In this document: in pieces, positions 23,740 to 26,613 of the stretch | How the letters are laid out: the number at the start of each line of letters is the position of its first letter | How positions within the stretch are numbered: the stretch's first letter is position 1 | Origin: Candidatus Izemoplasma sp. | GTDB taxonomy: Bacteria > Bacillota_I > Bacilli_A > Izemoplasmatales > Izemoplasmataceae | DNA: 39,077 nt | Direction: 5' to 3' | Assembly (NCBI GenBank): GCA_007131405.1 | Contig: SLQR01000094.1 | Location: forward strand, 1-39,077 | Notes under the pieces: model-generated | What the model was told of the DNA's origin: nothing | What the model saw: only the letters and a program-made list of their open reading frames with translations | The model's database searches: none | Made by a program: the position numbers and the translations under genes

Positions 23740-24498
23740 TTATTGTTTGTAAGCAGCGTCCACAAGGGTCATAAATGATTTTGGACTGAGGGATGCGCCA
23801 CCGACTAAAGCACCATCAATGTGTGGTTCTTTCATCAGCGATTCAATGTTTTCCGGTTTAACACTGCCACCATATAAAATACGAATGGCTTCTGATGTGG
23901 TTGTGTCGTAAAGTGTTTTTACTAAATCACGAATCATTTTGATGGTTTCATTGGCTTGTTCACTCGTCGCGGTTTTGCCTGTGCCAATCGCCCAAATCGG
24001 TTCATAAGCGATGACAAGCGATTGAACTTGGTCTTTGCCTAATCCTTGAAGGGCTATTTTGACTTGATCGCCCACAAAGGTTTCCGTTTTGTTTGCTTCG
24101 CGTGTTTCTAGTGTCTCGCCAACACAAACAATTGGTGTAATATCATAACGGAAGGCTTGGTGAAGTTTTAAGTTAACTTTATCGTCCGTTTCATTAAAAT
24201 ATTGACGGCGTTCGCTATGCCCGATTACTGCGTATTCAACCCCAATATTTTCAAGCAGAGCCGCGCTGACTTCACCTGTAAAGGCGCCTTCGGTTTCTTC
24301 GTGCATGGTTTGCGCAGCAATGCGTACGTTTTCGCCTTGACGTTTCACAAGGTCACGAAGTACTGGTGCTTGTGCACAAATCACGGTATCGATAAACTCG
24401 CGTTTTGGGACTTCCATATTTACCGCGTAGATGAATTGTAATGCTTCATCACGTGTTTTAAACATTTTCCAGTTTCCTGCAATCATTGGTTTTCTCAT
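23740..24498 (-). CDS. tpiA: Triosephosphate isomerase
   Basis: Interconverts dihydroxyacetone phosphate and glyceraldehyde 3-phosphate. IAGNWKMFKT (Asn, Lys), VIGHSERRQYF (catalytic His), VIAYEPIWAIGTGKTA (catalytic Glu and flexible loop) and ILYGGSVKPENI (phosphate loop) are all intact. At about 252 residues the length is normal. The track start is a GTG in the SD (AGGTGATG); I use ATG at 24498 (MRKPMIAG). It is last of the pgk - XRE-cupin - HPr-like - tpiA cluster. Confidence 0.96.
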   Translation of the reverse strand: MRKPMIAGNWKMFKTRDEALQFIYAVNMEVPKREFIDTVICAQAPVLRDLVKRQGENVRIAAQTMHEETEGAFTGEVSAALLENIGVEYAVIGHSERRQYFNETDDKVNLKLHQAFRYDITPIVCVGETLETREANKTETFVGDQVKIALQGLGKDQVQSLVIAYEPIWAIGTGKTATSEQANETIKMIRDLVKTLYDTTTSEAIRILYGGSVKPENIESLMKEPHIDGALVGGASLSPKSFMTLVDAAYKQ

Positions 24499-24507
24499 TG
24501 TCATCAC

Positions 24508-24753
24508 CTATCCTATAATTCTTTCAATCTCTTTGATGATTTTATCTGCGTCGTTTCCTTCGGCAACCACGGTTACATGTTCACCACTTGGTACGGCGAG
24601 ACTAATGAGTGATAAGATTGATTTAGCATCAACGATTTTATCTTCATAAATGAGTCTTAACTCACCATCAAAACGGGTAGCCGTTTGAACAATCTCACTC
24701 GCGAGTGCCGCATGCAATCCTTGGGTTGTGTTGATCATCATTTCTTTTTTCAT
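24508..24753 (-). CDS. HPr-like phosphocarrier protein, atypical active site
   Basis: An 81-residue protein with the HPr fold pattern. The active-site His is present in QGLHAALASEIV (His14), but the usual GIHARPA reads GLHAALA, so the Arg and Pro that follow His15 in HPr are replaced by Ala and Leu. The Ser46 region is kept as DAKSILSLISLAV (Ser45), the site used by HPr kinase in Firmicutes. It may be a Crh-like regulator or a carrier for a non-standard PTS; this is inference. It sits between the XRE-cupin gene and tpiA with SD AAAGGAGAA, not beside ptsI. Confidence 0.8.
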   Translation of the reverse strand: MKKEMMINTTQGLHAALASEIVQTATRFDGELRLIYEDKIVDAKSILSLISLAVPSGEHVTVVAEGNDADKIIKEIERIIG

Positions 24754-24766
24754 TGTTATTCTCCTT

Positions 24767-25315
24767 TTAGAACATCGGTGGTGTGCTGACCCACAACACG
24801 ATGGCTTTAGTTTCCGTATGGTTTTCTAATACGTGGGATTTATTGGTAAGGTAGTAAAACGAGTCACCTTGTTTGACGGTTTGACGTTTTTTACCTACTT
24901 TTAGCACAATTTCTCCTTCTAACACATACCCAAATTCTTCTCCAGAATGTGGGGTGTCTTCAAAAGAAGATCCACCAGGTTCAATCTCAATGATAATCGG
25001 TTCCATTTCGTATTTTTGTGCGTTTGGCACAATCCAGCGAATTGTGTGTTTTAATTGATTATCATTTTTTTCATAAAAGTCTTGTGGTGTAAACACATAG
25101 ATGTCATCAACATCCTCGCTGAAAAATTCACCGAGCGTTGTCCCAAGTACTTCAAGAATGTCTGTGAGCGTGGTAATCGAGGGACTTGTCAGTTGACGTT
25201 CCACTTGGGATATGAAACCTTTGGTAAGTTCACAGCGATTAGCTAATTCTTGTTGGGTTAAGCCGTTTTCAAGGCGTAGAGCTTTAATTTTCTCGCCAAT
25301 TTGTTTGTCAACCAT
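24767..25315 (-). CDS. XRE-family regulator with C-terminal cupin domain
   Basis: A 182-residue transcription factor. Residues 5-62 form the HTH (IGEKIKALRLENGLTQQELANRCELTKGFISQVER...LTDILEVLGTTL); residues 105-182 form a cupin_2 barrel (GGSSFEDTPHSGEEFGYVLEGEIVL, GDSFYYLTNKSHVLEN). Such proteins (PuuR-type) usually sense a small ligand; the cupin metal-like residues His, Glu, His are present in HSGEEFGYVLEGE and KSHVLEN. It starts 2 nt after the pgk stop without a strong SD, so it is probably coupled to pgk. Its position suggests it controls this operon; that is inference. Confidence 0.85.
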   Translation of the reverse strand: MVDKQIGEKIKALRLENGLTQQELANRCELTKGFISQVERQLTSPSITTLTDILEVLGTTLGEFFSEDVDDIYVFTPQDFYEKNDNQLKHTIRWIVPNAQKYEMEPIIIEIEPGGSSFEDTPHSGEEFGYVLEGEIVLKVGKKRQTVKQGDSFYYLTNKSHVLENHTETKAIVLWVSTPPMF

Positions 25316-25317
25316 GG

Positions 25318-26511
25318 TTAGATTGTATCCAAGCAGCTAAGCCCGGGCAGTTCTTTTCCTTCTAAGTATTCTAAACTTGCGCCACCACCGGTTGAGATGT
25401 GGCTAAAGTCGTTTTCAAAACCGAAGTTAATGGCGGCTGAGGCTGAATCGCCACCACCGATAATGGTTGTTGCATTTTTTAAGTTTGCAAGGACTTCACA
25501 GACACCGCGTGTCCCGTGAGCGAAGTTGCTAAATTCAAAGACACCTACTGGTCCGTTCCAAACAACCGTTTGTGCTTCATTAAGCATGGCTTTGTATTTT
25601 TCGAGTGTTTTTGGCCCAATATCTAATCCTTCTTCATCAGGGTTAACATCGGTGTAAGCCGCAATACGAACTGGTCCTTCATTGGAGAATTCTGTGGTGA
25701 CACGGAAGTCAACAGGCAGTTCAATTTTTCCGTCTGCTTCTTTCAGTAACTCCGCAGCCAAATCCAACTTATCGTTTTCAACAATGCTTTTACCCACTTC
25801 GATGCCTTGTGTTTTTAAGAAGGTATAACTCATCCCTCCACCAATTAAAATCTTATCGGCTTTTGTCAACAAGTTACGAATAACGCCAATTTTATCGCTT
25901 ACTTTAACACCGCCTAAGATGGCAATAAATGGACGTTTTGGATTGTTAATGGCGTTGCCAATGTACTCAATTTCTTTTTCAAGTAAGAACCCTGCAGCGC
26001 TTTCTTGTGCATTGGATGCAATGCCTACGTTTGACGCGTGTGCACGGTGTGCGGTTCCAAATGCATCGTTGACAAATACATCGCCAAGGGATGCCCAGTA
26101 TTTTCCGAGTTCTGGATCGTTTTTCGATTCTTTGCTGCCTTCGATATCTTCAAAACGTGTGTTTTCAAACATCAGTACATCGCCTTCGTTGAGTGCTTTA
26201 ATGGCATCTTCTAATTTTTTGCCACGGGTTTCAGCGATGAACGTTACATCTTTTTCTAAGTGGTCTGCTAATGCGTTTGCAATCGGGGCTAAACTTTTTC
26301 CCGCTTTATCTTCTTCTGTTTTAATACGCCCTAGATGTGAAAAACAAACAACTTTAGCGCCTTGGTCAATTAAGTAGTTGATGGTTGGTAACGCTTGACG
26401 AATACGGTTATCGTCCGTAATCTCACCTTTTTTCATTGGAACATTAAAATCGACACGTACTAAGACGGTCTTTCCTTTTACGATTAAATCACGAATGGTT
26501 TTCGTTGCCAT
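25318..26511 (-). CDS. pgk: Phosphoglycerate kinase
   Basis: ATP-forming step of lower glycolysis: 1,3-bisphosphoglycerate + ADP to 3-phosphoglycerate + [66 protein letters not shown] and the nucleotide loop [11 protein letters not shown] are all intact. At 397 residues it has the typical length. First gene of a four-gene unit with XRE-cupin, HPr-like and tpiA. SD AAAGGAGAA. gap is not in this window on either side. Confidence 0.96.
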
Positions 26512-26579: not shown

Positions 26580-26613
26580 TTGATTAGGCGGTAGTGAAAA
26601 CACTTTCTTAAAT

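Follow-up and report, generated by a model that had tools for sequence, protein, structure and literature searches.

An HPr-like protein encoded between pgk and tpiA in Candidatus Izemoplasma sp. is probably (at a probability of roughly 0.6) a dedicated, HprK-controlled regulatory HPr paralog that is made together with Pgk and TpiA and for which phosphorylation of Ser46 would be the main input. Its gene lies on a contig of 39,077 nucleotides (GenBank assembly GCA_007131405.1, contig SLQR01000094.1; the whole stretch is referred to here as the window). Residues are numbered as in HPr (i.e., His15 and Ser46 for His14 and Ser45 of the window protein). Bacteria that lack a complete PTS often retain HprK and HPr proteins, which raises the question of what the Ser-phosphorylated form does in them.

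A pgk-tpiA-linked family of HPr-like proteins

The locus comprises the following features, all on the reverse strand:

25318..26511 (-): pgk, phosphoglycerate kinase; opens the cluster and is the constant upstream neighbor of the HPr-like family
24767..25315 (-): XRE-cupin transcription regulator (HTH_3 + Cupin_2); optional cluster member, found in some relatives only
24761..24766 (-): AAGGAG, the ribosome-binding site that serves the HPr-like gene, read from the sequence
24508..24753 (-): putative HPr-like regulatory protein, 81 aa, with His14-Ala-Ala-Leu17 and Ser45 (HPr Ser46); assigned from Pfam, TIGR01003, clade membership, and AlphaFold2
24703..24714 (-): His-Ala-Ala-Leu codons, equivalent to HPr positions 15 to 18 and normally His-Ala-Arg-Pro; from the sequence and the family signature
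24619..24621 (-): codon for Ser45 (HPr Ser46), where HprK is predicted to phosphorylate the protein; 87 of 89 relatives retain this serine
23740..24507 (-): tpiA, triosephosphate isomerase; constant downstream neighbor of the HPr-like family

Only 13 nt, with a good ribosome-binding site within them, separate the XRE-cupin stop codon from the HPr-like start codon, and the tpiA open reading frame runs from a GTG at 24507, directly after the HPr-like stop codon (the likely start is the ATG at 24498). On the basis of this spacing, the ribosome-binding site, and the direct run into tpiA, we regard the HPr-like gene as a member of a pgk - XRE-cupin - HPr-like - tpiA cluster.

The protein matched PF00381 (E value, 1.3e-21; 76.9 bits against a cutoff of 23) and TIGR01003 (75.1 bits against a cutoff of 47.9), and similarity to PDB entries also placed it among the HPrs. 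An AlphaFold2 model based on 35 family sequences had the HPr fold (pLDDT, 85), with confident structural matches only to the HPr family (i.e., HPr, Crh, and NPr). As the initial annotation had stated, the open reading frame at 24753-24508 (-) has His-Ala-Ala-Leu in place of His-Ala-Arg-Pro and an intact Ser46 region: the active-site loop reads Gly-Leu-His-Ala-Ala-Leu, the Asp-Ala-Lys-Ser-Ile-Leu segment is preserved, and Ser46 stands within the HprK recognition segment AKSILSLISLAV.

The assembly of the window's genome (86% complete) contained two detectable HPr genes, i.e., the HPr-like gene and a canonical HPr gene (L001; HARPATML plus DLKSIMGLMSLG). Single genes for HprK (L003; TIGR00679; E value, 3.6e-102) and for a normal-type EI (567 aa; GGITSHSAIMAQ and VCGELAGE) were also present. 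A search for separate ptsH, ptsI, and hprK genes, proposed at the outset, thus recovered all three. Had the HPr-like protein been the only HPr next to a normal EI, this would have been taken to speak against a regulatory role, but this genome has a canonical HPr too. In four Anaeroplasma-type genomes, the HPr-like protein is the sole HPr, but beside a divergent EI.

Relatives with the same motif loss are present in the genus, the family, and the order, all between pgk and tpiA. A scan of named genomes returned 143 matches, of which 80 loci were kept; the carriers belong to Candidatus Izimaplasma, Acholeplasma, Anaeroplasmataceae, and related MAGs. Upstream, pgk was found in all 80 loci (with or without the XRE-cupin gene between), and tpiA followed immediately downstream in 78, the contigs of the other two ending there; no EII or PTS gene neighbored the HPr-like gene, the adjoining genes always being pgk and tpiA. 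In a tpiA-anchored survey, most genomes had the HPr-like gene directly on the 5' side of tpiA. The claim that the gene lies inside a glycolytic operon therefore became stronger than first made, with pgk and tpiA as constant neighbors and the XRE-cupin gene as an optional one. Noncarriers lacked the gene cleanly: the pgk-tpiA gap was about 575 nt (versus 820 nt) where the XRE-cupin gene was present and 26 to 71 nt (versus about 275 nt) where it was not.

Several loci depart from the simple arrangement. Tenericutes bacterium MO-XQ (CP017948, one complete chromosome) has the pgk - XRE-cupin - HPr-like - tpiA locus twice (L225 and L227), ~99 kb apart and identical over the compared stretch. A second family member in genome G381 (contig C3, L276) retains His, Ser-Leu, and Ser46 and lies away from pgk and tpiA, between orf658 and orf341, which are recG- and plsX-like by eye. 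In six loci of families f18, f7, and f22 (L275, L277-L279, L282, and L283), pgk-HPr-like-tpiA is preceded by a gene whose product, judged by eye, is an MsmX/UgpC-like ATPase of an ABC sugar importer, and the cluster may therefore link sugar uptake with lower glycolysis.

The signature was counted over 89 distinct HPr-like sequences and 58 canonical HPrs. Position 18 was Leu or Ile in all 89 HPr-like sequences and Pro in all 58 canonical HPrs, indicating that the motif change is not due to chance. Position 17 was variable (Ser, Gln, Glu, Ala, Leu, Lys, and rarely still Arg). The reported loss of Arg-Pro is thus real, with the refinement that the Pro18-to-Leu/Ile change is constant and position 17 merely free. 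His15 was retained in 88 and Ser46 in 87 of the 89 sequences, Leu48 and Ala54 each occurred in 88 (canonical HPrs mostly have Met48 and Gly54), and the hydrophobic patch after Ser46 (SILGLMSLA) was conserved. In a tree built from an alignment of only 80 columns, all pgk-tpiA HPrs, including the forms without His15, fell on one side of a branch separating them from the canonical HPrs that these organisms also encode (branch support, 96 to 97, and 92 once the His15 and Ser46 columns were removed). By its sequence, the window gene is a real, conserved gene distinct from ordinary ptsH.

Co-occurrence with HprK and EI and the fate of His15 and Ser46

In a class-wide survey of 395 genomes, the family score was bimodal: scores of at least 108 bits occurred in five families, one f18 genome scored 101.7 and the extra copy in G381 scored 96, and all else was at or below 87 bits, a range that includes the f18 and f7 forms with altered His15, which were identified by synteny. 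EI was detected by TIGR01417 and PF05524, and HprK by TIGR00679 and PF07475. In some genomes, PF05524 missed an EI that TIGR01417 recovered. Short open reading frames with a PEP-utilisers_N match, such as L284, L285, and L286 of f3 (225 to 251 aa, with no full EI), were not scored as EI. Divergent full-length EIs (L311 in G007, L312 in G042, L313 in G046, L314 in G022, and families f16 and f22) scored far below canonical EIs, had altered active-site surroundings (e.g., SLNSHTAIVS and TSNCHAAILA), and were the only EI in several genomes.

Among the 86 carriers, distributed over seven families, HprK was present in 83, the exceptions being G002, G014, and G018 (assemblies 79, 89, and 67% complete), and an EI or divergent EI was present in 73; only 1 of 41 noncarriers had both. 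In f12, the set of 19 carriers coincided fully with the set of 19 genomes having both EI and HprK, and G188, G229, and G235 lacked all three genes. When the comparison was limited to relatives at least 90% complete, under an earlier EI criterion, EI and HprK occurred in 19 of 20 carriers versus none of 10 noncarriers. In f18, the genomes with HprK were the genomes with the HPr-like gene (8/8), and at least 19 had neither (P = 4.5e-7, with kinship ignored). EI was found in only one of these eight carriers; f18, with HprK and the gene but mostly no EI, led us to abandon the view that the gene follows EI alone. Many of the genomes behind these counts are incomplete assemblies, and the counts take no account of kinship. 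The co-occurrence of the HPr-like gene and HprK was phylogenetically clumped; a kinship-aware test (five changes on the TpiA tree, with three firm independent pairs) was not significant. Most genomes had one HprK.

The two phosphorylatable residues had different fates. In f18, His15 was replaced by Asp or Asn in seven of eight genomes, with Ser46 intact in all eight, and in G180 (f7) His15 was Asp and Ser46 intact; together, His15 was Asp or Asn in 8/9 and Ser46 intact in 9/9. In five EI-less f18 genomes (G123, G145, G245, G268, and G280), a PF00381 search found the HPr-like protein as the only HPr. The f18 genome with EI (G192) has a second HPr with HARP but Arg at position 46, a complementary split of the two sites. 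In G018 (67% complete), the open reading frame is in place, both His and Ser are lost, and EI, HprK, and canonical HPr were not found. G010, which has EI but no HprK, has lost the gene. These fates would fit a protein for which HprK, acting on Ser46, is the primary input and in which His15 persists mainly where it is accessible to EI.

Other genomes show the limits of the association. The HPr-like gene was lost in seven f3 genomes that have HprK and canonical HPr and no EI; these indicate that HprK alone does not require the HPr-like gene. G396 has an EI-like protein and HprK and no HPr-like gene, and G011 has Asn at position 46 despite HprK.

In other EI-less genomes, the sole HPrs (L328-L333 in f20 and L326-L327 in f11) are not next to tpiA and have either Thr at position 15 (GLTSRLSA) or Val at position 18 (GVHAKVAA), with the LKSI/MKSI Ser46 segment kept; HprK is present in those f20 genomes and in G068. 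To judge from their motifs, these are parallel losses of the phosphocarrier motif.

Proposed function and alternative explanations

Few HPr residues make as many contacts with EIN as Arg17, and binding to EIN was no longer measurable for an HPr peptide carrying P18A (PMC8509676). The change from Arg-Pro to x-Leu should thus reduce phosphocarrier function: loss of Arg17 and Pro18 would weaken EI docking, EI would phosphorylate the HPr-like protein poorly, and sugar transport would be left to canonical HPr. HprK, which reads fructose-1,6-bisphosphate, ATP, and phosphate, would instead phosphorylate Ser46 of the HPr-like protein; fructose-1,6-bisphosphate activates HprK, whereas phosphate inhibits it (PMC8004850). 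Where EI exists, the retained His15 may provide a second input, dependent on EI and slower. The constant pgk and tpiA neighbors point to an output in the triose-phosphate segment, and the Ser-phosphorylated state would set binding to a putative partner in that part of glycolysis, although the adjacency may reflect coexpression only. There are precedents for such control: MgsA, which draws on DHAP, is controlled by the phosphorylation state of Crh (PMC9631020), and GapA activity is affected by HPr according to a passage of PMC12445079 that cites Pompeo 2007.

The regulatory, Crh-like role first suggested for the protein was supported by the kept Ser46, the presence of canonical HPr, EI, and HprK genes at other sites of the genome, the co-occurrence with HprK, and the persistence of Ser46 beyond His15 where EI is mostly absent. 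The alternative offered with it, that the protein serves a different kinase, found no support, given that most genomes have one HprK and that HprK tracks the HPr-like gene. A more far-reaching version, which we put forward tentatively and with some doubt, is that the family is a new HPr subfamily carrying the HprK signal straight to the triose-phosphate enzymes of its own operon, having arisen once near an Izimaplasma/Acholeplasma-type root and become a Ser-only switch (His15 to Asp or Asn) in lineages that have lost EI. A literature search, with most subscription journals outside its reach, found no paper on a pgk-tpiA-linked HPr subfamily.

The main rival explanation, which we consider rather unlikely, is a Crh-type corepressor that, once Ser-phosphorylated, binds CcpA or an RbsR-like LacI regulator; its effect would be transcriptional, and the neighboring enzymes would not be directly involved. 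Conservation covers Ser46 and the hydrophobic patch that follows it, where Crh has LMSLAV too, and although Bacillus Crh lay outside the HPr-like clade in the free tree, a clade with Crh as sister of the family was not rejected (AU P = 0.66) on the 80-column alignment. Arg17, however, contacts CcpA in structures, and this residue is kept in Crh and missing in the HPr-like protein. Cre-like sites also occurred in the window at chance frequency (88 loose matches versus 77 expected, with no signal).

Retention of His15 in 88 of 89 sequences where EI exists may reflect a His-based role, and the protein could then be a specialized phosphocarrier, passing phosphate from EI through His15 to a specific acceptor (an EIIA, a kinase, or a regulator) able to accommodate the altered surface. 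The absence of the gene from ten genomes of at least 90% completeness in which EI and HprK do not occur together and its place as sole HPr beside a divergent EI in the Anaeroplasma-type genomes agree with this explanation. We nevertheless judge it improbable: no member has kept Pro18 and almost none has kept Arg17, f18 keeps the gene with Asp or Asn at position 15 while being mostly EI-less, and the neighbors are always pgk and tpiA rather than EII or PTS genes.

Finally, modulation by the HPr-like protein of the DNA binding of the XRE-cupin regulator, with control of the pgk operon as the outcome, is very improbable even though the two genes are immediate neighbors in the window and many relatives, because the XRE-cupin gene is missing in about half of the HPr-like loci and occurs without the HPr-like gene in seven genomes (G001, G003, G037, G039, G041, G049, and G054), and no conserved operator was seen when a shared one was looked for upstream of pgk among the relatives. 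The regulator was thus dropped as an obligate partner, each gene occurring without the other, and the originally proposed link to it is not general. A palindrome, AGTGTTTTCACT, is present at 26593-26610, upstream of the window pgk; the sequence GTGTTTTCAC is also found upstream of pgk in L178 and L189 and not in most relatives.

For the HprK-controlled regulatory paralog that we favor, the family offers a graded series within one syntenic setting: His and Ser are kept with EI and HprK; in genomes that have HprK and mostly lack EI, Ser stays and His becomes Asp or Asn; and both are lost where neither EI nor HprK was found. Such a series lets evolution separate the two phosphorylation inputs, and the fixed pgk-tpiA position gives a short list of candidate targets. 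It suggests that carbon control in wall-less bacteria, which have few regulators, may act on central glycolysis via a dedicated HPr.

Comparison with known HPr-type systems

The HPr-like protein shares its fold, length, His15, and Ser46 with canonical Firmicutes HPr (PDB 1jem and 1ptf; L001). It differs in the loss of HARP, in the fixed changes Met48 to Leu, Val50 to Leu, and Gly54 to Ala, and in forming a separate, pgk/tpiA-linked clade.

Crh of Bacillus is likewise a second protein of the HPr fold beside the canonical one, with Ser46 and the SI(M/L)GLMSLAV segment; both proteins have changes in the His15 region that disfavor phosphocarrier use, and both are presumed HprK targets. The changes themselves are different: Crh has Gln15 with Arg17-Pro18 intact (GLQARPA), whereas the HPr-like protein has kept His15 and lost Arg17 and Pro18 (GLHAALA). 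Replacement of His15, which defines Crh, was not found in the window protein, Asp or Asn at this position occurring only in the f18 and f7 relatives. The crh gene belongs to a yvcJ-yvcK-whiA cluster and, unlike the HPr-like gene, does not stand in a pgk-tpiA context. As far as residues and context can tell, the protein works like Crh in its logic and is not Crh by its defining residues.

NPr, FPr, and DhaM are also specialized HPr relatives. The window protein scored 22.6 bits with the NPr model (cutoff, 119) and 34.1 bits with the DhaM model (cutoff, 520), and neither the NPr score nor the pgk-tpiA context fits an NPr (PTS-Ntr) identity.

The mode of action proposed here, control by phosphorylation state, is that of the HPrs that act on enzymes (i.e., B. 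subtilis HPr/Crh-GapA and Crh-MgsA, and E. coli HPr-glycogen phosphorylase; PDB 9s8b and 9s8k). Those HPrs are not encoded with their targets, whereas the HPr-like protein is encoded with pgk and tpiA, whose products would be candidate targets only.
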